From the NCBI RefSeq assembly GCF_000019165.1, contig NC_010337.2:2800001-2864000 (forward strand): DNA of 64,000 nucleotides, read 5' to 3'. The notes under the pieces were generated by a model. The model was given only the letters and a program-made list of their open reading frames with translations. It was not told the DNA's origin and searched no databases. Made by a program: the position numbers and the translations under genes. This document shows positions 755 to 57,000 of this stretch, piece by piece (the stretch's first letter is position 1; each line of letters opens with the position of its first letter). Source of the stretch: Heliomicrobium modesticaldum Ice1 (GTDB taxonomy: Bacteria; Bacillota; Desulfitobacteriia; Heliobacteriales; Heliobacteriaceae).

Positions 755-758
755 GTGA

Positions 759-931: not shown

Positions 932-934
932 AGA

Positions 935-1011
<77 letters not shown>

Positions 1012-1018
1012 AAATTTT

Positions 1019-1093
1019 TGGAGGCGGCGCCCAGATTCGAACTGGGGTATAAAGGTTTTGCAGACCTTTGCCTTACCACTTGGCGACGCCGCC
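1019..1093 (-). tRNA. tRNA-Cys (GCA)
   Basis: Acceptor GGCGGCG pairs with CGCCGCC, the anticodon loop is TCTGCAA (anticodon GCA), discriminator U, CCA encoded. It is the first tRNA of the operon, just downstream of the promoter. Confidence 0.95.
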
Positions 1094-17617: not shown

Positions 17618-19195
17618 TTACCGTTCAATCCTTTCCTTTAAGACAAGGCCGCATTTCATTCGGAATCCAATCTCTGCTGGCGAAAAAACGGTAATGCCTT
17701 CCACAAACCTTTCAAAGAGAAATTCATCAAACTCCTCAATAATGCCGCCTTCTTTTGACAGGTATTTAAGCAACGCTTCCGCTTCTGAAAGCGCAGACAG
17801 TCCTCCTGCAGAAGACGCTGCCAGCGCTGCCCGCTGTTCCCTGAGCCTTGCCGTTTCTGCCTTAAGTTCATTGTTCTGCTTATTAAAAAGAACGGGATCC
17901 AGATACCCTTTCGTCAGGAAACTGACCAGTATCTGCGCCCGCTCCGCGTTTTCCTCTATTTTTGCGTCAATTTCTCTTATCTTTGCATAAGAACCGCTTG
18001 CATCCTGTTCCTTCATAGCTTCAACCAGCGGCTTCAAAATGATGTTATGGTTGCTGTATAATTTGTTCATCATCAAAACGAACGCCTCTTTGATGCGGTC
18101 ATCGCGAATATATACCATGGAGCAATCCTTGGTCTTGCTGGCAATGTGCTTGCTGCAGCACCATGCAACGTATTGCCCAGGCTTATTTGCCATATGGATC
18201 CGCCGTTTGAATACGCTGCCGCATTCGCCGCAGATAATCCTGCCGGAAAAAGCGTAGCGGTTCAGGTATTTGCCTGTGCCTTTTTCAATTCCTTTTTCAC
18301 GGCTGCGCTGTGCCAAGATGCGCTTTGCCGCTTCAAAATCCTCCCGGCTTATGATCGCTTCATGATGATCTTTTATATAATACATTTCTTCTTCGCCATG
18401 GTTATAATGACGGATAAAATTATCGTCGGTATAGGTCTTTTGAAAAAGAGAATCGCCCACATACTTCTCATTTTCGAGTATCCCGCGGACAGCCGACGCC
18501 GTCCATTTCTTTCCCCGAGCGGGGTTGATTCCGTCAGCGTTAAGTCCTTCTGCCACGGCATGGGTGCCTCTGCCCGTCAAAATTTCCGCAAAGATACGTT
18601 TAACCACCGCCGCCTCCTCTGGATGCGGAACTATCGTTCCGTTGCAATATATATAACCGTAGGGCGGGCTTGAGAGCTTGAACGTCCCGTTTTGAAACCT
18701 CCTCTTGACGCCCCATTTGTTGTTCTGCGAGATGGAAACCGATTCATTTTCCGCAAGGCTGCTGAGCACCGAAAGCAAAAGCTCGCTGTCCATGGAGTGC
18801 GTGTTGATGTTCTCCTTTTCAAAATAGATGAAAATGCCAAGCTCCGAAAGCCTGCGGACGATCTCAAGGCAGTCGGCGGTATTGCGCGCAAACCGGCTGA
18901 TGGATTTGGTAATGATAAAGTCAATCTTATGCTTCTCGCAGTCCCGCAAAAGCCTCAAAAGCCCCTCACGGTTTTCCTTTTTAGTGCCGGAAATGCCCTC
19001 GTCGCAGTACAGCCCGGCAAACTCCCACTCCGGATTGTCCCTGATGATTTTTTCATAGTGCTGCTTTTGCGCTTCAAGGCTTAAAAGCTGATCGTCATTG
19101 TCGGTGGAAACGCGGCAATATGCCGCCACCCGAAGCTTCAGGGATGAAACAAACCTGTCCCCATTAGCTTCAATCTTCATTACTTTTCGCATCAT
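17618..19195 (-). CDS. large serine recombinase 3
   Basis: A protein of about 525 residues. The catalytic domain carries [16 protein letters not shown] (Ser30 as nucleophile) and [16 protein letters not shown]; the recombinase domain has WTASAVRGILENEKYVGD; the zinc ribbon has CGECGSVFKRR; a coiled coil follows at about 420-490. The start is the first ATG of an ATGATG pair behind GGGAGGAGG; the longer in-frame extension has no such signal. It is first of the three recombinase genes and immediately follows the 80-residue gene at 19253-19495. Confidence 0.92.
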   Translation of the reverse strand: MMRKVMKIEANGDRFVSSLKLRVAAYCRVSTDNDDQLLSLEAQKQHYEKIIRDNPEWEFAGLYCDEGISGTKKENREGLLRLLRDCEKHKIDFIITKSISRFARNTADCLEIVRRLSELGIFIYFEKENINTHSMDSELLLSVLSSLAENESVSISQNNKWGVKRRFQNGTFKLSSPPYGYIYCNGTIVPHPEEAAVVKRIFAEILTGRGTHAVAEGLNADGINPARGKKWTASAVRGILENEKYVGDSLFQKTYTDDNFIRHYNHGEEEMYYIKDHHEAIISREDFEAAKRILAQRSREKGIEKGTGKYLNRYAFSGRIICGECGSVFKRRIHMANKPGQYVAWCCSKHIASKTKDCSMVYIRDDRIKEAFVLMMNKLYSNHNIILKPLVEAMKEQDASGSYAKIREIDAKIEENAERAQILVSFLTKGYLDPVLFNKQNNELKAETARLREQRAALAASSAGGLSALSEAEALLKYLSKEGGIIEEFDEFLFERFVEGITVFSPAEIGFRMKCGLVLKERIER

Positions 19196-19252
19196 TTTCA
19201 CCTCCTCCCGGGGTGGACATGATACCTCTGAGCATAAATAATAGCAAGGCAA

Positions 19253-34749: not shown

Positions 34750-35995
34750 TCTTATCTGCCTCCTTATCATAAAAATTTCCTGCCCGCGACAGCGGGAGCA
34801 TATTGCCGTTGATGAGGTATAAATCGCCGCCCAGCTCCGCAGGAATGCGGTTCATGTTCTCAAGCTCGCGGATATCGTTGGCCGACATCCAGCCGTTCTG
34901 GCGCGCCACGGCATAGCCGTTCATGCGGCTGGCATAATCCCCGCGCAAAAGGCCGTCCACGTTGAACTTGACAAAGTACGTCCTCTTCTCCGAAGGCAAA
35001 AGCAGCGCTTTTTGGATGGCCTGCTCCCAGCGCACCACCCACGGGTCGAGTGTATATTTGACAAACTCCAGCGACTGCTGCTCGATGTTTGAAAAGCTCG
35101 ATTTTTCAAGGTCTCCTACCATATGGGGCGGCACGCGGAATATCCGGGCGATCTCGTTTATCTGGAATTTCCTTGTCTCCAAAAACTGCGCCTGCTCCGG
35201 CGGGATGCCGATCTGCTGGAATTTCATGCCCTCTTCCAGAACGGCGATGCGGTGGGCGTTGGCGCTGCCTTGATAGACGGCGTTCCAGCTTTCGCGCACC
35301 TTAGCCGGGTCCTTTAATACGCCTGGGTGTTCCAGCACGCCGCCCGGATTTGCGCCGTTGGCAAAGAAGGACGCGCCGTACTCCTCGCAGGCGATGGCCA
35401 TGCCTATGGCGTTCTTGGCCATGGCGATGGGGGAGTAGCCTATAAGACCGTCAAAGCCAAGCCCCGGGATATGCAGCACCTCGTCGCTTCGCAGGTATAT
35501 AAGGCCTGCCTTCGGATTTGTCCTGCTCTCCTCGCTGTCCCGCCGGTAGGTGTAATACAGCACTCCGTTTGGAGCCCTGTCCACCGTCATCTTGCTTGGC
35601 AGAAGCGGATAAAGCGCCAGCACCCGGCCTGCGCCGTCCCTGATAATCTGGGCGTAGGCGTTACCCCATAAAAGAAGATGACTCATCAGTGTCTCGCGGA
35701 ACACGAATGAAGTCATCTCCGGGTTTGGCTCGTCATGGAGCAGGTAATACAGCGGGTGGGTCAGCGCTTTCTCTTTGCCGCCGTCTTCTTTATACCGGTA
35801 CACATGAAGCGGAAGACCGGCGATGGCCTCGGCCAGTATCCTTACACAGGCATACACTGCAGTCGTCTGCATGGCCGTCCGCTCGTTGACAGCCTTGCCG
35901 CTGGATGTGCCGCCAAAGAAAAAGCCGTATGCGCTGCCGAACAGGCTGTTTTTCGGCTTGTCCCTTGCTTTGAACAGGCGGGAAAAGATATTCAT
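34724..35995 (-). CDS. HK97-family portal protein
   Basis: A 423-residue protein with RTAMQTTAVYACVRILAEAIAGLPLHVYR near the N-terminus, LSHPLYYLLHDEPNPEMTSF-like segment (ALTHPLYYLLHDEPN), MVGDLEKSSFSNIEQQSLEFVKYTLDPWVVRWEQ, and NGWMSANDIRELENMNRIP. These are the standard blocks of HK97 portals, which form the twelve-fold DNA channel. It overlaps the TerL gene by four bases. Confidence 0.94.
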   Translation of the reverse strand: MNIFSRLFKARDKPKNSLFGSAYGFFFGGTSSGKAVNERTAMQTTAVYACVRILAEAIAGLPLHVYRYKEDGGKEKALTHPLYYLLHDEPNPEMTSFVFRETLMSHLLLWGNAYAQIIRDGAGRVLALYPLLPSKMTVDRAPNGVLYYTYRRDSEESRTNPKAGLIYLRSDEVLHIPGLGFDGLIGYSPIAMAKNAIGMAIACEEYGASFFANGANPGGVLEHPGVLKDPAKVRESWNAVYQGSANAHRIAVLEEGMKFQQIGIPPEQAQFLETRKFQINEIARIFRVPPHMVGDLEKSSFSNIEQQSLEFVKYTLDPWVVRWEQAIQKALLLPSEKRTYFVKFNVDGLLRGDYASRMNGYAVARQNGWMSANDIRELENMNRIPAELGGDLYLINGNMLPLSRAGNFYDKEADKNASKNAGR

Positions 35996-37557
35996 ATAAA
36001 CAACAACCCCCTTTCGTCATAAACCGAGCCGGTGTTCTCCCCGCTGTGCCTTAGTGCGCGGTCAAGCGCCATAATAAGCGCGACCGCGCCGTCTATCCTC
36101 TCGGTGGATTTTTCCTTATCCGGCTTGATGTTTCCGGCCGGGTCGGTTTTGACAAAAATATTGTCCATCATCCAGCGCAGCACCGGATGTCCGCCATGGG
36201 CTATGCGCTCCTCCAGGGTAAGCTTCATCAGTTCCTTGGTGGGTGGGGACATGTCCTTGAAACCCTGCCCGAAGGGAACAACCGTAAATCCCATGCTTTC
36301 CAGGTTCTGCGTCATCTGCACCGCTCCCCAGCGGTCAAAGGCAATTTCGCGGATGTTGTATTTCATGCCAAGCTCCTCAATAAAGCTCTCGATAAAGCCG
36401 TAATGCACCACGTTGCCCTCGGTGGTGTATAAAAAGCCCTGCCGTTCCCAGACGTCGTACGGCACATGATCCCGCCGCACGCGCTGGTCGATATTGTCCT
36501 CCGGTATCCAGAAAAACGGCAGGATCTGATATTTATCCGATTCATCCAGCGGCGGAAACACCAGTACAAAGGCGGTAATATCGGTAGTAGACGACAGATC
36601 AAGTCCGCCGTAGCAGAAGCGTCCGCGCAGGCTGTCGGCATCGACAGGAAAGGCACATCTGTCCCATTTGTCCATAGGCATCCAGCGCACCGATTGCTTC
36701 ACCCACTGATTTAAGCGAAGCTGACGAAATAAGTTTTCCTCTGCAGGGTTTTGCTTGGCGTTTTCAAAGGCCACCCTCAGCTTCTCAATGTCCACTGTAA
36801 TGCCCAGCGAAGGATTGACCTTCTTCCATACTTTTTCACTTGTCCAGTCGTCGGTATCGGCCGCGCTGTAGATAACCGGGTAGAAGGTCGAGTCTATCTT
36901 GCGCCCCTGCAGGATATCCTCCGCCTTTTGGTGCACCTCCCAGCAGATGGAGTTCCTGTCGGTGCCTGCCGTCGTGATCAGGAAAAACAGCGGCTGCTTC
37001 CTTGCGTCGCCAGATCCGTGCAGCATCACATCATACAGATCGCGGTTCGGCTGCGCATGCAGCTCATCAAATACCACGCCATGGACATTCAGCCCATGCT
37101 TGGTATACGCCTCCGCCGAAAGCACCTGATAGAAGCTTCCTAGCGGCCTGTATATCAGCCGCTTCTGAGACAGCATCGGTTTAATCCGGGACTTTAATGC
37201 CGGGCATTGCTCCACCATATCCACCGCCACGTCGAATACGATGGACGCCTGCTGCCTATCAGATGCGCACCCGTAAACTTCGCCACCATGCTCGAAATCA
37301 CCGCAGGTCAGGTATAAGGCAATTGCCGCCGCAAGCTCGCTCTTCCCCTGTTTTTTTGGGATTTCTACATAGGCGGTGTTGAACTGCCGGTATCCGTTCG
37401 GTTTCAAGACGCCGAATATATCCCTGACAATCTGCTCCTGCCAGTCAATGAGCTCGAATGGCATCCCGTACCATTCGCCCTTGGTATGCTTCAGGCAGTT
37501 GATAAAAGCAACGGCGGCATCCGCCGCTTCTTTGTCGTACCGGGAGCCTTCCGCCAT
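35992..37557 (-). CDS. terminase large subunit (HK97-type TerL)
   Basis: A 521-residue packaging motor. The ATPase part has a Walker A variant in EIPKKQGKSELAAA and Walker B in VHGVVFDELHAQ; the nuclease part contains YGGLDLSSTTDITAFV and a C-terminal GAVALIMALDRAL. The reading frame is open further upstream and codes for KRYKPTKF, often present in this family, but no ATG, GTG or TTG start is seen there, so the ATG at 37557 is used; a rare CTG start is possible. TerL is unusually far from TerS, with the accessory block between them. Confidence 0.93.
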   Translation of the reverse strand: MAEGSRYDKEAADAAVAFINCLKHTKGEWYGMPFELIDWQEQIVRDIFGVLKPNGYRQFNTAYVEIPKKQGKSELAAAIALYLTCGDFEHGGEVYGCASDRQQASIVFDVAVDMVEQCPALKSRIKPMLSQKRLIYRPLGSFYQVLSAEAYTKHGLNVHGVVFDELHAQPNRDLYDVMLHGSGDARKQPLFFLITTAGTDRNSICWEVHQKAEDILQGRKIDSTFYPVIYSAADTDDWTSEKVWKKVNPSLGITVDIEKLRVAFENAKQNPAEENLFRQLRLNQWVKQSVRWMPMDKWDRCAFPVDADSLRGRFCYGGLDLSSTTDITAFVLVFPPLDESDKYQILPFFWIPEDNIDQRVRRDHVPYDVWERQGFLYTTEGNVVHYGFIESFIEELGMKYNIREIAFDRWGAVQMTQNLESMGFTVVPFGQGFKDMSPPTKELMKLTLEERIAHGGHPVLRWMMDNIFVKTDPAGNIKPDKEKSTERIDGAVALIMALDRALRHSGENTGSVYDERGLLFI

Positions 37558-37624
37558 AAATTTCGTTGGCTTATATCGCTTTAACTTCCGCAGCTTTGCC
37601 GCCCCCCTTCCTGAAAGTGAACAA

Positions 37625-37655
37625 GAAAAAAGGAACTCCTTAACGAAGCTCCTTT
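37625..37655 (-). terminator. terminator ahead of terL
   Basis: The minus strand forms AAAGGA-GCTT / AAGG-TCCTTT-type pairing with a short loop and runs into TTTTTT. It follows the gamma-glutamylcyclotransferase gene and precedes terL, so it marks the end of the accessory transcript or an attenuator before the late genes. Confidence 0.6.
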
Positions 37656-37704: not shown

Positions 37705-38172
37705 CTATATCTCCGCCGCCGTCTCCTGAGCCGCCGAATCCCGCACCGCTTTGTTGAGAATGGATATGTCAAAGCCCGCGTCAATATATCCCTGCCGGAT
37801 TACCTCGTAGTAGTAGCGACCCGGCGTACCCAGCAGCCTGCCTTCGTTCATGATATATGCCATTGCGGAAACCCACTTCCCTTTGAAAAGAACCTTAACC
37901 GTTTCTTTCCGGTACAGATGCGGATAGCCTTCATAGCGGTCCAGCGCCTCCTCGTCATAAGGCGTGATTCTCCAAAGCAATACCGGCACGCTTCCGCCTT
38001 TTTGCTTTTCTATCGTCGCCACCGCGCCGCCGTTCCCGCCCCGGAACAACAGCCGGAAGCCTGTGAGCTTCGCGCTCCCCAGAACCCGCGCCGTCGGGCA
38101 GCGGTATGCCATCTGCTTCAAATTCAAGTTGCTTCCGTATGCCAGATAAATTGTTCCTTTTTCCTTGTCCAT
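37705..38172 (-). CDS. gamma-glutamylcyclotransferase (AIG2/GGCT-like)
   Basis: A protein of about 155 residues starting MDKEKGTIYLAYGSNL. The substrate loop YGSNLNLKQM is the family signature, and the catalytic Glu lies in ALDRYEGYPHLYRKE. GGCT enzymes release an amine or amino acid from gamma-glutamyl conjugates by cyclising the glutamyl part to 5-oxoproline. The start with nine bases after AGGAGG is chosen. It is the last gene of a run that includes an amidoligase, the enzyme type that could make such gamma-glutamyl amides. Confidence 0.85.
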   Translation of the reverse strand: MDKEKGTIYLAYGSNLNLKQMAYRCPTARVLGSAKLTGFRLLFRGGNGGAVATIEKQKGGSVPVLLWRITPYDEEALDRYEGYPHLYRKETVKVLFKGKWVSAMAYIMNEGRLLGTPGRYYYEVIRQGYIDAGFDISILNKAVRDSAAQETAAEI

Positions 38173-38231
38173 TTGCATCTCCCTCCTTGTGTTTGCCGCG
38201 GGATAAGGGGCGGCTGTCCGCCCCCGCTCAT

Positions 38232-39131
38232 CTATGCCGCCCGAAACCGCCATGCCGCGTTGCCGTCGAGGTGTTTGCAAAGATGCTCCCGGCAGTTTTT
38301 GAACTCGTCGCCGATAAGCCCGATGCGGTTGAGGTATGTCCGCATGGCGAATTTTTCGTTTTCAACCTGCGGTTTCTTGCTGGAAGCGCATTTTTGCGTC
38401 AGCGCCTGATGGTTCAGCGCCAATGCAAGCACTATGTAGCTTCTGATTTTTCCCGCGTGAAGTTCACTGTTGAATCCCCTCAGTTCAATCGTTCCGTTGC
38501 CGTTGAAAAAGCTGTGCAGGTTCAAAAAATTGTATCTACTTCCATGATAATGCTGCCTGCGGCTTCCCTCGTAGCCTTCATACCAGATGCTCTCGATGGT
38601 CGCCATGGTCTTGGGCTTGCGGCGGTTTATCTTCTCCACCAGCGCCGCATCCATCTTCTTGCAGAAACGCATCCTTTCCGGCTCAATCTGCAGCGCCTTG
38701 TAGAGCAGGTCGTTCTTGCTGGCAATGATGTTGATGAAGTTGCGGATGCTTCTTGGCGTGTGGTTTGCGCTATCAAGATGGACATGAATTCCTGCACTGC
38801 TGTTGGTGAAGCCGCCCGCCTTGCGGAGCATCCTGATCAGCTCCTGCAGGGTTTCAATGTCCCCGCGGTAGGTCAGTATCGGGCTTACCAGCTCCACACT
38901 ATATTCCCGGCTTGCCTCGACAATCCGGCCGCACTCCTTTTTCTGAGTCCGGATGCTGCCGTCGCTCATGAACTTCCATACCCGTCCGTCCGGTGCGATT
39001 ACTTTCTGCGTGTTGTAATAATCGTTTCCGCTTTCGACCCTCCCGCCCAAAAACTCCGCGGCGACCTTTGCCGCCTGCGCCCTTGTAATCCCTGTAAATT
39101 CAACCTCGATTCCAAATCTCGTTTCAAGCAT
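38232..39131 (-). CDS. phage amidoligase (COOH-NH2 ligase, glutamine synthetase-like fold)
   Basis: A protein of about 299 residues starting MLETRFGIEVEFTGITR. GIEVEFTG supplies acidic metal ligands, YSVELVSPIL another acidic strand, AGIHVHLD the His pair, and NGTIELRGFNSEL the C-terminal acidic strand; this is the motif order of the amidoligase_2 family, which joins carboxyl and amino groups using ATP. The family has been proposed to act in phage-encoded peptide tagging or modification, often with GGCT partners. The start follows AGGAG. The C-terminal region EKFAMRTYLNRIGLIGDEF is shared with the paralogue at 39829-40503. Confidence 0.85.
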   Translation of the reverse strand: MLETRFGIEVEFTGITRAQAAKVAAEFLGGRVESGNDYYNTQKVIAPDGRVWKFMSDGSIRTQKKECGRIVEASREYSVELVSPILTYRGDIETLQELIRMLRKAGGFTNSSAGIHVHLDSANHTPRSIRNFINIIASKNDLLYKALQIEPERMRFCKKMDAALVEKINRRKPKTMATIESIWYEGYEGSRRQHYHGSRYNFLNLHSFFNGNGTIELRGFNSELHAGKIRSYIVLALALNHQALTQKCASSKKPQVENEKFAMRTYLNRIGLIGDEFKNCREHLCKHLDGNAAWRFRAA

Positions 39132-39140
39132 TGCGCTTTT

Positions 39141-39213
39141 CTCCTCGCTTTCCTGTGTTTTCTGCCCTTCGGCAGTGTACATTAGGCCATTGAAAACACA
39201 GGATAGCAAGGCA
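39141..39213 (-). promoter_or_regulatory. structured leader before the amidoligase gene (element 1)
   Basis: The minus strand reads CCTTGCTATCCTG, then TAATGTACACTGCC, a small hairpin CTGCC-GAAG-GGCAG, and AAAACACAGGA. The arms TCCTGTGTTTTC and GAAAACACAGGA form a 12-base inverted repeat that encloses the TAATGTAC segment. A related element precedes the paralogous gene (40551-40615). The two share CCTTGCT(A/T)TCC and TAATGTACxCxGCC, which suggests a common cis-acting RNA or protein-binding site. Confidence 0.5.
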
Positions 39214-39272
39214 ATTCTGCATGAGTTTCCGCAGGATTTTCAACAATTTTTCGCAGCGGGATTTGTGTACAT

Positions 39273-39503
39273 TTAAAGCTTCCTGATCATGTCCGCACCA
39301 TAGGCCGCGCCGAGGGTTGACCCGCAATCCCAATCCACAAAAATAGTCCCTATATCATCCACAAATGAAACGGTGCCTTGATCTCCCGGTTTCAGCATAG
39401 AGTACGGATCATCCATGCGGATAAGCTCGACGCGTGTCCCCGGCGGATACTGTTTTTTAAGACGGAGGACGGTTTCATTTGAAGGAAAGCCTCCTGCGCT
39501 CAT
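39273..39503 (-). CDS. DUF4314 protein
   Basis: A 76-residue protein: PPGTRVELIRMDDPYSMLKP, then GDQGTVSFVDDIGTIFVDWDCGSTLG. This is the DUF4314 pattern, a compact SH3-like beta barrel, often found in clostridial mobile elements. A good AGGAGAGGA-type ribosome site precedes the ATG. It sits between the two amidoligase-type genes and may be a small binding module of that system; the family has no assigned activity. Confidence 0.82.
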   Translation of the reverse strand: MSAGGFPSNETVLRLKKQYPPGTRVELIRMDDPYSMLKPGDQGTVSFVDDIGTIFVDWDCGSTLGAAYGADMIRKL

Positions 39504-39506
39504 CTT

Positions 39507-39836
39507 TCAATCCTCTCCTCCCGGATAATATGCGGCGTATTTGGGATAATCCATGCCATCGGGCATCACCAGCACTCCGTCCGGCTGCCCCCGCTGCCGT
39601 ACCAGCAGGCATTGCCATACCCCGTCTTCGTCAATGCGGCAAAGCCCCTTGTTTTCCTCGATAAACCGACGGCCGACACACAGATCGGCAATGAAGTTCT
39701 CATAGTCAATCTTTGAAAGCCCGATAGTTTTCACAACCGCAAAAGGTTTCCTTTGCTCATACAGGTGAGGCATCTTTAGATCATCAATCCTGAACGGATG
39801 CTTGACAAAGAAGGCGGTGCTATGAAAATCACTCAT
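39507..39836 (-). CDS. small protein of unknown function in amidoligase block
   Basis: A 109-residue protein starting MSDFHSTAFFVKHPFRID. It overlaps the end of the amidoligase-like gene by eight bases, so it is translationally coupled to it. Notable segments are AVVKTIGLSKIDYENFIADL and EDGVWQCLLVRQRGQPDGVLVMPDGMDYPKYAAYY, a beta-rich C-terminal half. No catalytic motif is recognised and I do not place it in a family. It occurs only in the accessory block. Confidence 0.65.
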   Translation of the reverse strand: MSDFHSTAFFVKHPFRIDDLKMPHLYEQRKPFAVVKTIGLSKIDYENFIADLCVGRRFIEENKGLCRIDEDGVWQCLLVRQRGQPDGVLVMPDGMDYPKYAAYYPGGED

Positions 39837-40503
39837 TCTCATCCGCCGCCTTTGCTCTGCCTTTCCGGTACGCCCCGTTGCCGGACAGCCTTGAAAGCAA
39901 TATCCTGCGCTCAGTCCTGAACTCATCCCCGATAAACCCCAGCCGGAGCAGGAAACAACGGAAGGCATACTTTTCATTATCCGCCGGTTTTTCGGCAGCC
40001 AGCACGCGCTTCTGCGCCTTTGCCTGTTCCGCCATCTGCCTTGCCAGCGTGATATACGTCTGCACCTCGTCGGCATTCAGGGTCGCATTCCAAAAAGGGA
40101 AGGCGATTTCGCCATTTTCAGCCGACACTTCTATGTCACAGTCAGCCGACAGCGCTTTCTTTATCAGCGTTTCCTTGCTGGCCAGCATATTTTTAAGATT
40201 TTCAAGGCTCGCCTCGCCAAAGCCGTACAAAGAAAGCACAATCGTCATATTTCCCTCTGCGGACAGCCCGGCGATATTCAGCGCGTCGATAACCGGCCGG
40301 ATGCTTTTGATTTCGTCAAGGCCGGTTTCCGGCGAATGCACAGCGCCGTCCCTGTCAACCGACCAGCCGTTTGTCTCATATGAAAAGCCCGGCGCTCCGG
40401 CATAGTGCACCTGGCCTCCAAGGGCCTCGGCGATTATTGCGGCAATAACTTTTCTCTCCTGACTGGCAACCTTCTGTGAAAAGCGGAAGCTGTTATTCCT
40501 CAT
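39829..40503 (-). CDS. amidoligase-like protein lacking catalytic motifs
   Basis: A protein of about 224 residues whose C-terminal third (EKYAFRCFLLRLGFIGDEFRTERRILLSRLSGNGAYR) clearly matches the end of the amidoligase at 38232-39131. The middle keeps helix-strand order, but the GIEVEF acidic strand is replaced by an N-terminal segment SQKVASQERKVIAAII, and the GIHVHLD position reads MTIVLSLYG. Without these ligands it should not bind metal and ATP in the usual way. It may be a non-catalytic partner of the intact enzyme. The start uses GGGAGG eight bases upstream. Confidence 0.75.
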   Translation of the reverse strand: MRNNSFRFSQKVASQERKVIAAIIAEALGGQVHYAGAPGFSYETNGWSVDRDGAVHSPETGLDEIKSIRPVIDALNIAGLSAEGNMTIVLSLYGFGEASLENLKNMLASKETLIKKALSADCDIEVSAENGEIAFPFWNATLNADEVQTYITLARQMAEQAKAQKRVLAAEKPADNEKYAFRCFLLRLGFIGDEFRTERRILLSRLSGNGAYRKGRAKAADENE

Positions 40504-40550
40504 TCCATACACCTCCCATCAAATAAGCTGAACCATTTTTGATTCCCATA

Positions 40551-40615
40551 AAAAAATCCCACCTTTCTTCTTTTGGCGGGGTACATTAACGCTCTGTTTT
40601 GAGGGGAAAGCAAGG
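40551..40615 (-). promoter_or_regulatory. structured leader with terminator hairpin before the amidoligase-like gene (element 2)
   Basis: The minus strand reads CCTTGCTTTCC, then TTAATGTACCCCGCC, then a hairpin CCCGCC / GGTGGG followed by seven T. It shares order and key sequence with element 1 (39141-39213), but here the last hairpin is a complete intrinsic terminator. Transcription from the methyltransferase genes could thus be stopped or attenuated before the amidoligase-like gene. Confidence 0.55.
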
Positions 40616-40621
40616 ACATTT

Positions 40622-41875
40622 TCAAGCGATCTGTGTTTCCGCATAAGGAATTTTTTCATCCCCGCGCAGCAGGAATGCGGCGTTATCCCCGAACTGGGAA
40701 ACATAGCGCTTTGCAATCACATCGCAGTACTTCGGGTCAAGCTCCATCATGAAGCAGACCCGCCCGGTCTGCTCAGCGGCAATCATTGTCGTGCCGGAAC
40801 CTCCGAACAAGTCAAGCGCCAAATCTCCCGCATGAGAACTGTTGAGCATGGCCTTTGCCACAAGCGAAACAGGCTTCATGGTCGGGTGCTCCTCCGACAC
40901 TTTCGGGCGGGGTATCTCCCAGACATCCGACTGCTTGCGGTCTTTAAGCGGGCAAAGGCGCGTCCCCTCCAGCCAGCCGTACCAGATCGGCTCGTACTGG
41001 GTATGGTAATCCTTGCGGGAGAGTACAAGGCTATCCTTTTTCCATATAATCGTGCTTGACCAGTGGTACCCCGCCTCCCGCAGGACGTTCATCAAGCTGC
41101 CCCATTCCTGCGCAGACATCACCACATAGGTCATGCACCCGGCCTCTGAAACCTCCCTCATGCAATTAAAAGCGCGCGATAAAAAAGCGCCGAATTCCTC
41201 GGTGCTCATTCTGTCGTTTAAGATTTGCCTGGGCTTCCAGCTTGGGTGTCTGGTATCCGAACCGTAATCCACGTTCCAGGGAGGATCGGTGAAAACGAAC
41301 CGCACCTTTTTGCCATCCATCAGCTTTTGCACATCCAATAGCAAGGCGCTGTCGCCGCACATCAGCCGGTGCCTGCCGAGCAGCCATATATCTCCCCTTT
41401 GGGTAACCGGCGTTTTGATTTCCGCCGCCGCCTTTTCCGCATCGAAATTATCCTCTTTGACATTGGCGGCAGTTTTATCACGGAACAGCTCGTCGATCTC
41501 TGCAGCGTCAAAACCGGTAAGGGAGACATCAAAGCCATCATCATTCAAACCTTTAAGCAAATCTGTCAAAAGCGGAATATCAAACTCTCCGCTGATTTTA
41601 TTCAAAGCAACATTGAGCGCCTTTTCATGCTGCTCATCCAAATCAACCACAACACAGTCGATTTCCTTATACCCCAAGGCAGTCAATACCTTATACCGCT
41701 GGTGCCCGCCAACGATATTCCCTGTGCGCCTGTTCCAAATGACCGGCTCTACATATCCGAACTCCTCAATGGAGCGGCAAAGCTTTTCATATTCAGAATC
41801 GCCCGGCTTTAAGTCCTTCCGCGGGTTATATTTTGCAGCTTTTAATTTTTCTGCAGGTATTTTCTGTATCTCCAT
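40622..41875 (-). CDS. ParB-domain DNA methyltransferase, DPPW type
   Basis: A 417-residue fusion. Residues about 1-110 are a ParB N-terminal-like domain (AAKYNPRKDLKPGD, then NIVGGHQRYKVLTALGY). The methyltransferase has catalytic motif IV FTDPPWNVDYG and SAM motif I LALDLFGGSGTTMIAAEQTG near the C-terminus, with motif IV before motif I (beta-class order). DPPW enzymes modify the exocyclic amine of adenine or cytosine. No restriction partner is adjacent, so a protective or regulatory role for phage DNA is likely. It follows a second, related fusion gene by five bases. Confidence 0.88.
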   Translation of the reverse strand: MEIQKIPAEKLKAAKYNPRKDLKPGDSEYEKLCRSIEEFGYVEPVIWNRRTGNIVGGHQRYKVLTALGYKEIDCVVVDLDEQHEKALNVALNKISGEFDIPLLTDLLKGLNDDGFDVSLTGFDAAEIDELFRDKTAANVKEDNFDAEKAAAEIKTPVTQRGDIWLLGRHRLMCGDSALLLDVQKLMDGKKVRFVFTDPPWNVDYGSDTRHPSWKPRQILNDRMSTEEFGAFLSRAFNCMREVSEAGCMTYVVMSAQEWGSLMNVLREAGYHWSSTIIWKKDSLVLSRKDYHTQYEPIWYGWLEGTRLCPLKDRKQSDVWEIPRPKVSEEHPTMKPVSLVAKAMLNSSHAGDLALDLFGGSGTTMIAAEQTGRVCFMMELDPKYCDVIAKRYVSQFGDNAAFLLRGDEKIPYAETQIA

Positions 41876-41880
41876 AAATG

Positions 41881-43188
41881 CTAACCCTCCACTTTCATAG
41901 CTTTTTCGCCGGTGAAGTCCTCCCAGCGTTTAACCGCCAAATCGCAGTATACAGGCGACAGCTCCATCGCATAGCATTTACGCTCGGTCTGTTCTGCCGC
42001 AATAATGGTCGTGCCGCTGCCGGAAAACGGCTCCAGCACAATACCGCCCTTATCGCTGTGCATTTTGATGCAGCGCCATGGAAGCTCCACAGGGAACATG
42101 GCAGGGTGCTCCTTGTTTGCCCGGACTGTCGTCATCTCCCATATGCCGGCATAGCCCCACTTCTTACGCTCCTCCTTGGTCAGCCGTTTTACAAATTTAT
42201 AACTGTGTCCTGCAAACGCCGAAAGCCACACATACTCCTGATCGTTGTATTCCTCAGCCTCTCCGTTTTTACTGAACGCCGAAATATATTCATACTGCTG
42301 CACCGGTTTGTTTGAAACAAGGTGATAGGGGCCCACGCCGAAATTCTGTCCCTGCTTCTTCCAGATACGGATCCATATGGGGCGAAAACCGTTGTCCAGA
42401 AACATATTCACGCTGTATACGCTGGTAGGCTCGATGAATTGTGAGCCGGTGGCGTAAAGGTCGCCCAGATTCCAGCAAACAATATCCGCACGCCTGCACA
42501 GATTTCTGATAACCGGGCGCACGGTTTCAAACCACGGCTCGATTCCGGCCTTCTCATATTCTTTGCCCACTCCGTATGGCGGGGAGGTAACTGCCATCTG
42601 TGCATGACCCCCGTTCATTAACTTCTCAAAATCCTCCTCGCTCGTAGAGTCGCCGCACATCAGGCGGTGGTTCCCGAGAAGCCAGATATCACCCCGCTTT
42701 GTTACCGGTTCGCGCTGCATGATTTCCTCATGCGCTTTGTCTATGTCAAAGTTGTCCTGCACCGCCTCTTTGGAGTACCAGCGGTTGAGAAGCTCGTCGA
42801 TTTCAGAAGCGTCGAATCCTGTGAGCGAAACATCAAAGGCACCTGCGTCCAGCTCGGCCATCAACTCTGCCAGTTTATTCTCGTCCCACTCTCCCTGAAT
42901 CTTGTTGAGGGCAAGATTGAGCGCTTTTTCCCTCTGCGGGTCAAGCTCCACCACGACGCAGTCGATTTCGGCCTGCCCCAAATCCAGCAGCACCTTCAGC
43001 CGCTGGTGGCCGCCTACCACATTGCCGGTCTTCTTATTCCAGATGACAGGCTCCACATAGCCGAATTCCTCTATCGAGCGTTTGAGTTTCTCGTATTCCT
43101 TGTCGCCTGGCTTTAAGTCCTTGCGGGGATTGTAGACGGCAGGATTCAAAAGCTCGGCTTTGATTTTCTGTATGTTCAAATCAACCAC
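41881..43188 (-). CDS. ParB-domain DNA methyltransferase, TSPPY type
   Basis: A 435-residue fusion with the same ParB-like start (NPAVYNPRKDLKPGDKEYEK, NVVGGHQRLKVLLDLG). Its motif IV is VTSPPYGVGKEYEKAG, which points to an N4-cytosine-type enzyme, and motif I is VLEPFSGSGTTIIAAEQT. A central segment with FIEPTSVYSVNMFLDNGFRPIWIRIW differs from the first fusion, probably the target-recognition part. It overlaps the terS gene by eight bases. With its neighbour it would give the phage two different base modifications. Confidence 0.88.
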   Translation of the reverse strand: MVDLNIQKIKAELLNPAVYNPRKDLKPGDKEYEKLKRSIEEFGYVEPVIWNKKTGNVVGGHQRLKVLLDLGQAEIDCVVVELDPQREKALNLALNKIQGEWDENKLAELMAELDAGAFDVSLTGFDASEIDELLNRWYSKEAVQDNFDIDKAHEEIMQREPVTKRGDIWLLGNHRLMCGDSTSEEDFEKLMNGGHAQMAVTSPPYGVGKEYEKAGIEPWFETVRPVIRNLCRRADIVCWNLGDLYATGSQFIEPTSVYSVNMFLDNGFRPIWIRIWKKQGQNFGVGPYHLVSNKPVQQYEYISAFSKNGEAEEYNDQEYVWLSAFAGHSYKFVKRLTKEERKKWGYAGIWEMTTVRANKEHPAMFPVELPWRCIKMHSDKGGIVLEPFSGSGTTIIAAEQTERKCYAMELSPVYCDLAVKRWEDFTGEKAMKVEG

Positions 43189-43732
43189 CCCTTCTTGCCG
43201 TCAGGAGTTTTTCCATCACGTCGTCGTGCGGTGTCGCCCCTTTGTATTCGCTGGCGCAGTTTTCGCGCACTACTTGGTAAATCTGATACCACAGGTTGTT
43301 GGCCTGCTTCATGAAGCTTTGGCTCATGGCCACATAAGGCGACGGGATGGCGTTGCCGGTCGTCGGATGCTTGGCAAGAAAGCCAAACTCGGTGATGCAT
43401 TCCTCGCACTGGATCCACCGCGCCACGCTCTGTGCGTATTGCTCGATTAGCTGCGCAGGGATAAGATGCTCACACCGTCGCTCGTACAGCCACTGCCATG
43501 TCTTTTCGTAAATCTCCACCGCCAGTGTCGCCTTGCCATTCTTCTGCTTTGCGGCAAGATACTCCCTCGGCGGCGGCATGCTCTGCCCTTCCAGATCTGC
43601 AGTGTCCATAAACTCCATTACCATAAGCTTGCGTCTGCCCGGGTTTCCTTCCAGAATCTTGTCAGCCAGCGGCTTTTTCTTTTGTCCCGCGCCAATACGC
43701 GCTCCGCCGCGGCTGGTACCATCCTTTGCCAC
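43181..43732 (-). CDS. terminase small subunit (P27 family)
   Basis: A protein of about 183 residues. The N-terminal block GGARIGAGQKKKPLADKILEGNPGRRKL is the hallmark of P27-type TerS. The middle holds the helical LIPAQLIEQYAQSVARWIQCEE, and the end is PHDDVMEKLLTARRG. TerS recognises the packaging start on phage DNA and hands it to TerL. The GTG behind GAGGTG is the likely start; an ATG two codons earlier would touch the ribosome site. Confidence 0.9.
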   Translation of the reverse strand: MAKDGTSRGGARIGAGQKKKPLADKILEGNPGRRKLMVMEFMDTADLEGQSMPPPREYLAAKQKNGKATLAVEIYEKTWQWLYERRCEHLIPAQLIEQYAQSVARWIQCEECITEFGFLAKHPTTGNAIPSPYVAMSQSFMKQANNLWYQIYQVVRENCASEYKGATPHDDVMEKLLTARRGG

Positions 43733-43879
43733 ACACATCACCTCGATTCATGTAATTAATTGGGGCCTGCACAGCGCAGTTTGAGACGACGAGGGATATA
43801 CCCCGTTTGAAACTGCGACTTTTCGCGCGCGACCCCACGCCCGTTGCACGAAACATATCCACCAGAGATTTTGACCCCC

Positions 43880-44372: not shown

Positions 44373-44825
44373 TTATTTGCCGAACAGCATCAGTGAAAGA
44401 CGGGAAAGCGCTTTGCTGCGCAGGCGTTCAATCTGTCTTTCGCTGTAATTGAGCTCGCACTGAAGCCTTGAAGCCGCTCCGGAACGCTGATTGCCGGTCA
44501 TGTAAAACTCACGCAAAATATGCTGTTCCTCATCGGTCAAGGCGCCCCACGCCGGTTCAAACCAGCCCATGTATTCTATCGCCTGGCGGTACCGTTCCTG
44601 AAGCACGTCCAGCTTGTCAAGAGACTCCGCCAGCGCTTCCTCTCCGCTTCGCGGGTTCCTCACCCTCGGAAGGCCGGTAAGCTTAGCCGCGCGGGGACTA
44701 ATCATCCGGTCGTAAAGTTCTTTTATCTCCTGCGGTGTGATGTTGATGACATTCCGCATGCTGTTGTAGTCCTTGATGGCGGCGATCGTCGCCGCCGGTT
44801 TGTCTATGTATCTCCACGCTATCAC
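44373..44825 (-). CDS. phage late regulator, sigma-like (DUF1492/ArpU type)
   Basis: A protein of about 150 residues starting with GTG (VIAWRYIDKPAATIAAIKDY) behind GGAGGTGGG. The C-terminal part ALTDEEQHILREFYMTGNQRSG followed by LNYSERQIERLRSKALSRLSLMLFG is a helix-turn-helix like sigma region 4. Proteins of this type close the early module in many Firmicutes phages and switch on late genes. It overlaps the end of the VRR-NUC frame. Confidence 0.75.
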   Translation of the reverse strand: MIAWRYIDKPAATIAAIKDYNSMRNVINITPQEIKELYDRMISPRAAKLTGLPRVRNPRSGEEALAESLDKLDVLQERYRQAIEYMGWFEPAWGALTDEEQHILREFYMTGNQRSGAASRLQCELNYSERQIERLRSKALSRLSLMLFGK

Positions 44826-45132
44826 GAGCGCCCACCTCCAAGTTTTCAAGAATGGATAAACCGTCCAAAACGGTTCTGACATCCCCGACGCTTGTTACCT
44901 TGAAGGCCTCGCCCTTTGCATCTCTGATTTTTCGCATCGTCGCTTCCTGAAGCTTTGTCAGCCTGCCGGACGCTGTTTTCACCTCAAAGGCGATAAACCT
45001 GCCTTTAATGCAGCAGATAATGTCCGGCAGACCGGCTGTGCCGTACATGCCGCCATGCTCTTTCCAGCAGAAACATTCCGGCACAGACTTTAAATACCGC
45101 ATGATTGCGTTTACGATATCTCTTTCTGCCAT
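44698..45132 (-). CDS. VRR-NUC domain nuclease
   Basis: A 144-residue frame. The VRR-NUC core is complete: MAERDIVNAIMRYLKS, WKEHGGMYGTAGLPDIICCIKGRFIAFEVKTASGRLTKLQ with the catalytic Asp, Glu and Lys, and VRTVLDGLSIL. Stand-alone VRR-NUC proteins of phages resolve branched DNA and are usually about 95-100 residues. The last 40 residues here (rich in His, Gln and Arg) overlap the next gene by 128 bases and look like out-of-frame reading, so the protein may simply have gained a tail by loss of its stop. Confidence 0.82.
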   Translation of the reverse strand: MAERDIVNAIMRYLKSVPECFCWKEHGGMYGTAGLPDIICCIKGRFIAFEVKTASGRLTKLQEATMRKIRDAKGEAFKVTSVGDVRTVLDGLSILENLEVGARDSVEIHRQTGGDDRRHQGLQQHAECHQHHTAGDKRTLRPDD

Positions 45133-53708: not shown

Positions 53709-53752
53709 CGGGGAGGACTGCGGCACCCAGAGAAAAGCACACAAAGACAAAA

Positions 53753-53788
53753 GCGGCCGAGTTTACTGAAATTCGTAAACTCGGCCGC
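53753..53788 (-). terminator. strong terminator at the prophage early end
   Basis: Perfect 13-base arms GCGGCCGAGTTTA and TAAACTCGGCCGC with a ten-base loop. In minus orientation it is followed by TTTTG, and in plus orientation A/T-rich sequence also follows, so it may work both ways. It insulates the prophage operon from the DNA on its right. Confidence 0.75.
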
Positions 53789-54337
53789 AAAAACTATTCT
53801 ATCAAGCAGCGCCCTGCCTAAGGGTCGTCATCGCTTTTTGCGCTGTATTGTCTTTTTATACGTGGATGGAATCTATTCCGGCGTATAGCTTTTGCCTTAT
53901 GTATATTGGCAGAGAACCGCTTGATATTGTATGAAGTCCTGGCCATACAATATCAACCTCTTAAGCTCCAACTTACACGGCAGCACCCGCCATACGCTCA
54001 GCTTCTATTTAATTTCGGCAGGTGTTGTCATGCCGAATTTGTCTTTTGGTTGTTTATTTTGTTTTTTATCCAAGAACACTTCCACCTTTATGCAGTGCAA
54101 CGTGATTACCGCCCTTCGATTCAACTGGCATTGTCGCGTTTTATTAAAAGATTCAGAATAGAAAAAGCCTTAAGGTTTTTCCATATGCTAACAACCAGAT
54201 ATTTCTCTCTACCAATAAAAACAAAATAAAGAGGCATTTTGTGACAATTATTTGTGCGCTTTTATACGGATCTGACTAAAAGTTGTTTAGTGCAAGAAAT
54301 TTCCATGATACATGATGTAAGAAAGGCATATAACAAA
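53789..54337. other. stretch without a convincing gene at the prophage right edge
   Basis: Short open frames on both strands lack ribosome sites and have no recognisable domain. The minus strand shows fragments such as DKKQNKQPKDKFGMTTPAE and VWRVLPCKLELKRLILYGQ broken by stops, which look like decayed coding DNA from a former mobile element. A one-sided sequence CGCCCTGCCTAA also occurs near 20750, but this is within chance expectation. The prophage end probably lies here. Confidence 0.45.
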
Positions 54338-54366
54338 ACATCCCCCGGAAAACTTCTGGGGGATGT
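54338..54366 (-). terminator. terminator after the M56 peptidase gene
   Basis: The arms ACATCCCCC and GGGGGATGT enclose an 11-base loop, with TTTTG following on the minus strand. It lies 40 bases after the stop of the M56 gene and ends the BlaI-M56 transcript. Confidence 0.75.
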
Positions 54367-54406
54367 CAGCAATATCAAGCCTAAAGACTGTTTTATATTT
54401 TAAACT

Positions 54407-56623
54407 TTATGATTCGTCAGGCAGCTTCAATATGCATCCGCCGCCGTATTCGCTGCTATTGGCAAGAACCAGGCCGGTGTCGGTTTCCGCCAGCGCAACG
54501 CTGTAAAACCACACTCCGTTTTCCGCCTTTTTTGACTGATCGACGAGTATCGTCCCTTTGTGGACGCTCCCGTCGCTGGAAGTTATCTCGAAGCGAAGGA
54601 TACAGCCGTTGGCGACGTCGCTGCTGTCGAACACGTCGCCTTCCGAAGGCGACCAGAGGATGGTTTTGCCCGCCGGGTAATCTGTTTCCTTCCCGCAGTC
54701 GATGTAATTTGGCGCTTTCGTTTCGTCGTTAAGCCAAAGCATTCCTCTGTCCACCGACACATGAGCGTTGGAAAAAGGGATATTGATGCGGATCGGCAGG
54801 GCGGGGAAGACGGAGCTTTTGGGGTTATACTCCCACGTGACGCCTGTTTTTGAAATAAAGTCGTGATACAGCGCCATCGCGGCGGCGGTGTAGTCGCCCT
54901 GATATTCTTCCTGCACTCCGAGCGTGTTGAATGCGCCCACCCTGCGCCGGATTTCGGATTTCGAGTCCCAGTCGTGGACGGTCACGAGAAGCGGCTGGCC
55001 CGTGCTGCCCCACTCTGTCAGCCAGCCGTCCTCCATTTTCATTCCTCCTGCGAGAACCACCTTTTCGGCGTCGTCCGGCAGCAGGCGGTACTCAAGCCGC
55101 CACATCTCGACAGCCTTGGTAAGGCTTGCGGTGCCGGTGTTCATAAGGGTCACTGCCGTGATCTTCGCGTCGGTTATGTTGTAGCCGAGGCTGTTGTAAT
55201 ACTTTATCTGTTCGCGCACATAGTCCTCCGCATAGTCTCTGACCGGAGCATAGTCTTTAAGCAGATGGGAAACGTCGGCGGGTAAGTTCCAGCGGATATT
55301 GATTGCGTTGCCGCTGCTTTTCTCCATGTTATCTGTATATACCTGATATAATACTTTGCCTGAATTCCCGCGAGTTTTGTAGATCCCGATATATGGCTCC
55401 TCAATATACTCGCCGCCGCCTTCCGAATACAGGCACAGCGTTCTCATCTCATTTTCCATAATAAGCCTTAAAACAAGATAGTTGTCCTGCATCGGGCGGT
55501 CGTTGACGGAACGCCTCAGCGTTTTTTTCGAGCCAGCCATGGCCGAAAGAATTGTGTCGATTTGCTCGGCGCCGGTTATACCCACACGGCCTACGCTTAA
55601 CCTGTCGTTGAACTGTTCCATTTCAACGGTAAATACCGACGCCGTGTCCGGAAGTTCAATGGTCTGGGCCGGATTCGCCATCAGCAATACGGCCCAGACG
55701 GCCGCGAAAATCACCGCCGCGCATACTATCCAAAACGCCGGTTTTTTGTAACGAAACATATGCTCAATCCGGCCTTTCGTTGCGCCTTCTCCGAAAGCCA
55801 GAGGGCTTCCCGCCGGAAGAGGACGCTTTATCGCCAGACGCATCAGCGTCTCGCCGTACCTGACCTTTCCATCCTGGTCAAGCCCGCGTGCCGCCCGCTC
55901 GTCGCAGCTCATTTCCATATCGCGGCTCATCAGGCGGAAGGCCAGCCACATGAATGGATTGAACCAGTGAATGGACAAGGCTAAAAACGCTATTGGCTTG
56001 GCGATGTGATCCTTCCTGAGGATATGCGCACGCTCATGAAGCAAAACGTATTTCCGCTCGGTTTCGTCGATCCCTGCAGGCAGGTATATTCTTGGCTTTA
56101 AAAAGCCGCACACAAAAGGAGAGGATATTTCGTCCGTTTCAAAAACATTGCCGCATAGCGGGACGGCCGTTGAAAGCCTATTTTTTAGGCGCAGATAGGA
56201 AACGACGCTGTAAATCAGCATCAAAGCCAATCCGGCAATCCAAACCCAAGCCCCACAAAATAGGAATGTCTGCATAAAGCCGGCGCTTGACGCCCCGGCG
56301 GACTGAACCGCTGCGGAATTTGCCGCTTCGCCGGCGATGTAACCAGTATCGGAGCCTATATGCTGCACGGCGTCAGGCATATTGCTATTTGCAATGTATT
56401 CCATTGCTCCGCTCTCTGTAACAGGCGCTCCCAAAAGACCAAACAGGGAGAAAAACGATGAAAAGGACACCGGGCAGACAAGCCTGAACAGAAGAACGCC
56501 CCAGAGCGCATAGGATATCCGCTTCGGCGCCCTCCTAAGCGGCAGACGCAGAACGAGTATGGCAAACAGCACGCAGGTGGCCGTAATGCTCATATTGAGA
56601 ATCTTCAAAAATGCTTCCGCCAT
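54407..56623 (-). CDS. BlaR1-like M56 membrane metallopeptidase
   Basis: A 738-residue protein. Residues about 1-300 hold transmembrane helices and the zinc protease site LLHERAHILRKDHI (HExxH), followed by HWFNPFMWLAFRLM, as in BlaR1/MecR1. A further helix lies at AFWIVCAAVIFAAVWAVLLMA, after which an extracellular part of about 420 residues follows. That part does not show the penicillin-binding SxxK/SDN/KTG set, so the ligand is probably not a beta-lactam. The protein is expected to sense an outside signal and lead to loss of the adjacent BlaI repressor. Its start overlaps the blaI-type stop by one base. Confidence 0.88.
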   Translation of the reverse strand: MAEAFLKILNMSITATCVLFAILVLRLPLRRAPKRISYALWGVLLFRLVCPVSFSSFFSLFGLLGAPVTESGAMEYIANSNMPDAVQHIGSDTGYIAGEAANSAAVQSAGASSAGFMQTFLFCGAWVWIAGLALMLIYSVVSYLRLKNRLSTAVPLCGNVFETDEISSPFVCGFLKPRIYLPAGIDETERKYVLLHERAHILRKDHIAKPIAFLALSIHWFNPFMWLAFRLMSRDMEMSCDERAARGLDQDGKVRYGETLMRLAIKRPLPAGSPLAFGEGATKGRIEHMFRYKKPAFWIVCAAVIFAAVWAVLLMANPAQTIELPDTASVFTVEMEQFNDRLSVGRVGITGAEQIDTILSAMAGSKKTLRRSVNDRPMQDNYLVLRLIMENEMRTLCLYSEGGGEYIEEPYIGIYKTRGNSGKVLYQVYTDNMEKSSGNAINIRWNLPADVSHLLKDYAPVRDYAEDYVREQIKYYNSLGYNITDAKITAVTLMNTGTASLTKAVEMWRLEYRLLPDDAEKVVLAGGMKMEDGWLTEWGSTGQPLLVTVHDWDSKSEIRRRVGAFNTLGVQEEYQGDYTAAAMALYHDFISKTGVTWEYNPKSSVFPALPIRINIPFSNAHVSVDRGMLWLNDETKAPNYIDCGKETDYPAGKTILWSPSEGDVFDSSDVANGCILRFEITSSDGSVHKGTILVDQSKKAENGVWFYSVALAETDTGLVLANSSEYGGGCILKLPDES

Positions 56624-57000
56624 TACTTTCGCCCCCTGTACTCGTCTATGATCCGCCTTATCTGCTCCGCCTCGCTGTCGCTGATTTTTTCATCTCCCAG
56701 AAAGGCTGCGATAAACTTCGGCAGGGAACCGTCAAAGACCCGGGCGACAACATTGCGGCTTTCAATCGCCTGAACGCATTCACGCCCCATTTTTGAAGTG
56801 ACAATTGTGTTCTCGTTCTGCAAAGCGCCTTTGTCGCAGAGCCGCTTTAGCACCGTGTACGTTGTCGTGCGCTTCCAGCCGAGCCGCACCTCCGCCAGCC
56901 TGCACAACTCGGGCGAAGCGACAGGCTCAAATTCCCACACAATTGACAGCAAACGGTAATCCGCATTGCTTAGCTTTAAATCCTCATCCATTAACAGCAC
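56623..57000 (-). CDS. BlaI/MecI/CopY-family repressor
   Basis: A 125-residue winged-helix regulator: LKLSNADYRLLSIVWEFEPVASPELCRLAEVRLGWKRTTTYTVLKRLCDKGAL (about 8-60) is the family DNA-binding domain, and the C-terminal half FDGSLPKFIAAFLGDEKISDSEAEQIRRIIDEYR the dimerisation part. It binds an operator as a dimer and is destroyed after signalling by the M56 partner. A large palindrome lies directly before its start. Confidence 0.93.
   Translation of the reverse strand: MLLMDEDLKLSNADYRLLSIVWEFEPVASPELCRLAEVRLGWKRTTTYTVLKRLCDKGALQNENTIVTSKMGRECVQAIESRNVVARVFDGSLPKFIAAFLGDEKISDSEAEQIRRIIDEYRGRK

Follow-up and report, generated by a model that had tools for sequence, protein, structure and literature searches.

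In 2009, Iyer et al. predicted that amidoligases paired with a gamma-glutamyl cyclotransferase (GGCT) modify peptidoglycan, a prediction cited in several phage reports (PMC11318856, PMC11253131, PMC5498523, PMC10580990). One described form is the phiEco32/LUZ24/PSA-HP1-type cassette, in which an amidoligase of glutamine synthetase (GS)-like fold accompanies a GGCT in a phage, and for which surface modification and superinfection exclusion are predicted, as cited in three of these sources (PMC11318856, PMC11253131, PMC5498523). Two further examples, LM41phi13alpha/epsilon of C. clostridioforme (PMC11318856) and TPDSL_ph1 of Terrisporobacter (PMC11253131), carry two amidoligase open reading frames (ORFs) followed by a GGCT. 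The present analysis concerns a gene block of this kind in Heliomicrobium modesticaldum Ice1, within a 64-kb stretch of DNA (NC_010337.2, positions 2,800,001 to 2,864,000), called the window below and numbered from its first letter. The favoured explanation, held as a whole with moderate confidence, is that this block, located between the two DNA-packaging genes TerS and TerL, serves a Heliusvirales-like Firmicutes prophage as its cargo zone, that it consists of two cassettes preceded by a lysogeny-linked promoter-like element, and that one cassette carries out reversible gamma-glutamylation.

Some of this is already in print, namely the amidoligase-GGCT pairing, which an earlier account of this DNA made from its letters alone (the sequence-only reading) had rightly described as proposed for phages, and the combination of two amidoligase ORFs with a GGCT in clostridial prophages. 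TPDSL_ph1 proved to be a direct relative of the window prophage, with the same gene order. However, the accessible text of the LM41phi13alpha/epsilon and TPDSL_ph1 papers (PMC11318856, PMC11253131) does not report the pseudoenzyme status of one amidoligase, the separability of the units, the shared element or its link to the integrase; a literature search of incomplete coverage likewise returned no report of a conserved pseudoenzyme paralogue, of unit separability or of an integrase-linked element. The locus also differs from the phiEco32-type cassette: neither an ATP-grasp enzyme nor a glutamine amidotransferase is present among the genes between TerS and TerL, every one of which was identified, and the phage is temperate, with an integrase-type leader of its own and an adjoining pseudo-amidoligase unit.

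Two cassettes between TerS and TerL

All nine genes from TerS to TerL lie on the minus strand, at the positions and in the order given by the sequence-only reading; dozens of other loci show this order again, and it is far from a chance arrangement. The pseudo-amidoligase gene (39829..40503; phrog_2443 E=1.5e-48, no PF12224 match) is followed by the gene of a 109-aa DUF6329 protein (39507..39836; PF19854 E=1.1e-6, phrog_21303 E=6e-16) and by a DUF4314 gene (39273..39503; PF14192 E=4.8e-31), the last of its unit. Next come the amidoligase (38232..39131; PF12224 E=3.3e-76) and the GGCT (37705..38178; PF06094 E=1.2e-13, phrog_2520 E=1.4e-44). The start of the DUF6329 gene overlaps the stop of the pseudo-amidoligase gene, and the two are therefore probably translationally coupled; this coupling had been proposed before, for a product then called unknown, a label now replaced by the DUF6329/phrog_21303 assignment. 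The DUF4314 gene begins 3 nt after the DUF6329 gene and is separated by 141 nt from the amidoligase gene, which the GGCT gene follows after 53 nt. This spacing suggests two units.

Co-occurrence was scored in loci collected through TerL, a bait that favours none of the accessory genes; 44 of them had at least 6.5 kb upstream, and dereplication left loci whose TerL proteins are <90% identical. All bait proteins closely resembled those of the window, so the frequencies apply to that circle rather than to all phages; some loci are fragments. The amidoligase and the GGCT were both present in 18/44 loci and both missing from 26/44, with neither ever found alone (p=1e-12; 11/0/0/15 after dereplication, p=1.3e-7). 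The pseudo-amidoligase was found in 14/18 amidoligase-positive versus 20/26 amidoligase-negative loci (Fisher p=1; dereplicated p=0.41), and it co-occurred with DUF4314 in the TerL-anchored loci (p=0.0017; dereplicated p=0.002). When the pseudo-amidoligase served as bait, the amidoligase was missing before TerL in 46/63 loci. Streptococcus phage Javan630, Erysipelothrix phage phi1605 and Gardnerella phage AB1 carry the pseudo-amidoligase without the amidoligase, and in these phages it is annotated as 'virulence-related protein' or 'virulence protein'. Conversely, in six loci of conjugative elements the amidoligase-GGCT pair directly follows a VirB4-type ATPase gene, without pseudo-amidoligase, DUF4314 or the leader element described below.

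Given this independent presence and absence, the separate promoter-like elements and the solitary amidoligase-GGCT pairs of conjugative elements, the block comprises two independently inherited cassettes, pseudo-amidoligase-DUF6329-DUF4314 and amidoligase-GGCT. The sequence-only reading had instead taken the five families for one phage modification system, in which the pseudo-amidoligase, DUF4314 and the 109-aa protein would partner the amidoligase and the GGCT. The adjacency of the five genes in the window and its near relatives fits such a system, as does a C-terminal motif common to both amidoligase-type proteins, which may form an interaction surface. It is nevertheless very improbable in view of the same three lines of evidence and of the many pseudo-amidoligase loci that lack an amidoligase before TerL. 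What remains of that proposal is that the families co-occur and that amidoligase and GGCT are paired.

The cassettes occupy a recurrent position. An architecture survey used the amidoligase as bait and covered 160 loci, in which the order HNH-TerS-(MetK)-ParB methyltransferase-pseudo-amidoligase-(DUF6329)-DUF4314-amidoligase-GGCT-TerL-portal was met repeatedly. TerS and TerL lie 1.7-9 kb apart in 33/41 TerL-anchored loci where TerS was found. A wide gap is thus the rule in this group, which removes the earlier premise that the two genes are usually neighbours and that the gap here is unusual; the view of the block as random cargo falls as well.

Side observations on the conjugative elements concern the genes after the pair. 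In elements L345 and L348, the GGCT is followed by a protein of 381-383 aa that matches no Pfam family, in the place that an M23 peptidase takes in the conjugative element of the H. modesticaldum genome (L006). A gene matching the local DUF6329 profile comes after this protein (noted for L345, L348 and L349).

An intact amidoligase and its GGCT

The amidoligase scores 256.8 bits against a curated PF12224 cut-off of 22, and residues E9, E11, E80, H116, H118, E216 and R218 are present and (near-)invariant over 59 diverse sequences. Its AF2 model (pLDDT 92.5) resembles YbdK (Z 13.3, rmsd 3.9 over 234) and plant glutamate-cysteine ligase (GCL; Z 13.0), followed by GshA (Z 11.1) and glutamine synthetases (Z about 11). 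Profile, residues and model indicate a gamma-glutamyl-ligase-like carboxylate-amine ligase of the GS/GCS fold with an intact active site, which is predicted to be an active enzyme. The GGCT aligns with human gamma-glutamyl cyclotransferase across the YGSN motif and the catalytic Glu, and the motif is kept in 151/163 sequences; with these motifs intact, cyclotransferase activity is predicted. An intact amidoligase and a GGCT in the same run, as noted from the sequence earlier, are thereby confirmed. Ratios of nonsynonymous to synonymous substitution rates (dN/dS) against close relatives are 0.05-0.10 for the amidoligase, 0.09-0.16 for the GGCT and, in most comparisons, 0.02-0.06 for TerL.

An apparent insert of about 370 bp within the amidoligase gene of several loci turned out to be the C-terminus of the neighbouring pseudo-amidoligase matching the query, and an Rfam search found no intron. 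Sequence comparison gave no convincing solved relative for either amidoligase-type protein.

The genome holds two other amidoligase genes: the conjugative element L006 (C1:180000-199000) carries one, and the other belongs to a second prophage in which this block is also found (L007, C1:2893000-2912000). Both are interrupted by an identical (100%) 3479-bp element with three tyrosine recombinases (RIT type), of which the genome has no third copy. The two insertions, in opposite orientations, hit codons of the catalytic GIH/HxH motif, suggesting site-specific targeting of the conserved active-site sequence.

A maintained pseudoenzyme

Homology of the pseudo-amidoligase to the amidoligase profile spans the whole protein (hhalign probability 100%, E=4e-45). 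In the pseudo-amidoligase, E9, E11, H116, H118, E216 and R218 are replaced, and both the segment carrying E80 and segment 161-203 are deleted; with all catalytic residues lost, the earlier description of a catalytically empty second amidoligase holds. The loss is general, as 143/146 paralogues are without all three active-site motifs. The C-terminal motif NEKYAFR..L.RLGFIGDEFK is retained. An AF2 model (pLDDT 93.6) places the protein in the Dop/YbdK/GS fold (Dop Z 10.4, YbdK Z 10.2). Its dN/dS of 0.09-0.19 against close relatives shows that it is maintained and no relic; together with wide conservation, this ruled out a decaying pseudogene. By residues and predicted structure, the protein is a maintained pseudoenzyme with a GS-like fold.

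A promoter-like element shared with the integrase

The gap before the amidoligase carries a conserved sequence in about 100/126 distinct leaders, and the same sequence precedes the pseudo-amidoligase. It consists of TTG(C/A)TA, a spacer (N17), and GATATA or TAATAT, followed by GTAC and a small hairpin; the spacer is exactly 17 nt in 97/100 and 127/134 leaders. An nhmmer profile detected 435 copies across the loci at E<0.01 and none in 4.38 Mb of reversed sequence at that threshold. All 416 copies in TerL-bearing loci lie on the TerL strand. By position, 164 precede the pseudo-amidoligase, 144 the amidoligase and 119 other genes, mostly small and unlabelled, of 33-148 codons, and the element is hardly ever found in front of TerS, MetK, the methyltransferase, TerL or the portal gene.

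The window contains three copies, all on the minus strand. One precedes the pseudo-amidoligase unit (40581..40614) in a divergent clade form (CTTGCTTT...TTAATGTAC; clade pattern 23/23), at a position orthologous to the 164 copies of relatives. A second (39177-39210), assigned by clade pattern and position, lies in the amidoligase leader (39132..39272), together with a long hairpin that has the ribosome-binding site (RBS) on its 3' side. The third (19215..19248; nhmmer E=0.019 in 64 kb) belongs to a large serine recombinase, the integrase (17618..19252; PF00239 E=1.6e-33). The integrase-linked copy stands 4-69 nt ahead of the large serine recombinase gene, or of the first one where there are several; 13/15 near-complete phage records examined have it: the window, Javan630, phi1605 and TPDSL_ph1, three gut phages (L322, L325, L326) and six viral contigs (G042, G044, G046, G048, G049, G054).

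The sequence pattern and its positions suggest that the element is probably a promoter driving cargo and integrase together, with activity expected in the establishment or maintenance of lysogeny. A broader version, offered tentatively and with somewhat less than even confidence, is that of a Heliusvirales-like lysogeny regulon, in which one multi-copy promoter class would drive the serine integrase and rotating cargo cassettes, with the amidoligase translated from its own promoter only. Alternatively, the element could lack promoter function and mark cargo genes as a signal for translation initiation or recombination. In favour of this, its distance from start codons is about 40-80 nt, the RBS lies inside it or adjoins it, it has hairpin potential, and there is a precedent in the SAS/ESAS motifs of Cluster K mycobacteriophages (PMC3203893), which likewise occur in many copies just upstream of selected phage genes, some with inverted repeats. 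The sequences are unrelated, and here two spaced hexamers are limited to cargo genes and the integrase. The hexamers resemble -35 and -10 boxes at a fixed 17-nt spacing, which leaves a pure signal function unlikely.

Two other candidates were rejected. The leader before the amidoligase is conserved and structured (z=-3.97) and has no Rfam relatives; a riboswitch or leader RNA was set aside as the primary reading because the same sequence precedes the pseudo-amidoligase and the integrase at the fixed 17-nt spacing; its pairing is retained below in the form of read-through masking. The hairpin near 40.57 kb, considered as a terminator before the pseudo-amidoligase, belongs to the leader of that gene.

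In the window, the element precedes the first of three genes for large serine recombinases that overlap or adjoin one another (15262-19252, minus strand). Trios of this kind, with a short middle protein, also occur in the relatives L321, L327, G042 and G048.

Possible read-through masking of the amidoligase leader

The inter-hexamer spacer of amidoligase leaders shows complementarity to the stretch containing the RBS. Duplexes between a leader's own arms reach -13.2 kcal/mol, as against -10.3 kcal/mol for permuted pairs, and among leaders of <65% identity the values are -11.1 versus -8.6 kcal/mol (0/2000 permutations as low, p<1/2000). The low folding score of the window leader was given above; in pseudo-amidoligase leaders the pairing effect is weak. 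If the element is a promoter, its 5' arm lies upstream of the transcription start, so only read-through RNA would be masked. In transcripts arriving from upstream, the promoter spacer would pair with the RBS region and mask amidoligase translation; those starting at the element would lack the masking arm and allow translation. Such an arrangement is known from phage T4, where the RBS of genes e and soc is masked in read-through transcripts and free in those from internal promoters. The likeness is confined to this logic, since the sequences are unrelated and masking at the amidoligase is predicted here from complementarity alone.

Proposed function

In the proposed scheme, the HNH-TerS-(MetK)-ParB-methyltransferase...TerL-portal backbone would be interrupted by self-contained cassettes, each beginning with the promoter-like element. 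GGCT chemistry requires a substrate that carries glutamate through its gamma-carboxyl group with the alpha-amine free, and the ligase would therefore most plausibly add free glutamate to an amine. With ATP, the amidoligase would attach free glutamate via its gamma-carboxyl to an amine acceptor, and the GGCT would remove the gamma-glutamyl group as 5-oxoproline and return the acceptor. A similar protecting-group logic operates in butirosin synthesis, where a ligase attaches a gamma-glutamyl group that the GGCT-fold protein BtrG takes off. Overall, the acceptor, most likely a component of the envelope or cell wall, would receive a gamma-glutamyl cap that can be removed again. The pseudo-amidoligase would share the scaffold of the amidoligase but be a distinct protein without catalysis.

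An envelope acceptor is favoured by the prediction of Iyer et al. (2009) and by the context in conjugative elements, including L006, where an M23 peptidase (a peptidoglycan hydrolase) follows the pair. The main rival is that the amidoligase and the GGCT make and recycle a small gamma-glutamyl metabolite, such as a protected amine or thiol, and touch no macromolecule. The closest folds, YbdK and glutamate-cysteine ligase, act on small substrates, and the closest solved GGCT works on gamma-glutamyl amino acids; the VirB4 neighbourhood and the M23 hydrolase, in contrast, point to the envelope, and the metabolite alternative is judged rather unlikely.

Coupling to the integrase speaks for a role during lysogeny or while lysogeny is being established, superinfection exclusion being one example, rather than for modification of the virion. 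A late role of the block, modifying the virion or the packaging machine, would suit its location inside the packaging genes, on the same strand and often with short gaps. Yet the backbone packaging genes are without the element that the integrase has, and conjugative elements, although they form no virion, carry the amidoligase-GGCT pair too; such a role is accordingly quite improbable. The most likely function is that an amine acceptor, probably in the cell envelope, is reversibly gamma-glutamylated as part of the lysogenic programme.

Separability, pairing, folds, the lost catalytic residues, selection and the shared element come directly from the computations, whereas promoter function, timing, masking, enzymatic activity and the envelope acceptor are inferred. 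Several points weigh against this explanation. The loci are related, and their counts are not fully independent. The amidoligase element of the window scores E=0.76 in 64 kb against the general profile, its identity coming from clade members and position. In L324 and G056, no integrase copy of the element was found; some phage records are cut, which makes missing integrase copies elsewhere incomplete evidence. The element could also bind a late-acting phage activator, as the integrase is needed for excision too. Finally, the envelope acceptor has only the conjugative-element context and the earlier prediction behind it.

The prophage and its backbone genes

The closest annotated relatives of the prophage are Candidatus Heliusvirales gut phages, which share its backbone and have close homologues of its amidoligase, TerL and portal protein. 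Nine shared genes are listed for Ca. Heliusviridae (PMC9226167), and of these the window contains TerL, portal, Clp protease and major capsid protein. DNA polymerase I (PF00476 E=3e-97) and a SNF2-like helicase (PF00176 E=1e-33) are also present. An ORF at 44698-45132 matches the phage endonuclease family phrog_93, without Pfam match, at a position that fits the Ca. Heliusviridae VRR-NUC nuclease. In contrast, the nine genes exclude the TerS-TerL block, and two of them are unseen in the window prophage: neither DUF2800 nor DUF2815 was seen among the window ORFs, a partial set scanned up to the bla-type genes at 54-57 kb.

TerS, a P27-like small terminase subunit (43181..43741, minus strand; PF05119 E=8.5e-7, phrog_83 E=6.6e-34), forms the upstream border of the cargo zone. 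It is followed by two ParB_N-DNA methyltransferases (ParB_N + N6_N4_Mtase) at 41881..43188 (PF01555 E=3.9e-29, phrog_498 E=1e-112) and 40622..41875 (PF01555 E=3.2e-23, phrog_498 E=2e-150). The methyltransferases are conserved phage backbone and part of neither cargo unit; in relatives they are often single-copy. A DNA-hypermodification system that includes them was rejected, since it has no positive evidence and the methyltransferases occur without either cassette. In many relatives (L171, L172, L173 and others), a gene for MetK, an S-adenosylmethionine synthetase that is absent from the window, directly precedes the methyltransferase, apparently as a dedicated supply of S-adenosylmethionine. 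Where TerS adjoins TerL, a different helix-turn-helix protein (phrog_2308) lies between HNH and methyltransferase (L008 13922-14407, L010 4090-4557).

TerL (35992..37557, minus strand; PF20441 E=2.8e-49) is the downstream border. Its frame stays open upstream of the first ATG (37558-37635, minus strand; KLRKLKRYKPTKF...), as it does in the second prophage of the genome (L007), and the start is therefore probably a non-ATG codon upstream of 37557. A phage transcription regulator (44373-44882; phrog_36/248) lies just upstream of HNH; as a guess, it might act on the leader element. The early end of the prophage seems cut (53740-57000, minus strand), since its last phage-like genes give way to genes for a penicillinase repressor and an M56 peptidase of the BlaR1 type. 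Ten tRNA genes are clustered at the left end of the window (118-1093, minus strand).

Biological meaning

Amidoligase-GGCT pairs have been predicted as phage surface modifiers since 2009, and the unit to test is now narrowed to two genes. The analysis offers a chemical constraint, in that free glutamate would be joined through its gamma-carboxyl, and suggests a timing, together with the integrase. Additionally, a streptococcal phage 'virulence-related protein' is recast as a pseudoenzyme of the GS fold. The element itself may serve as a shared signal for finding further lysogeny-linked cargo genes in a common group of gut phages.

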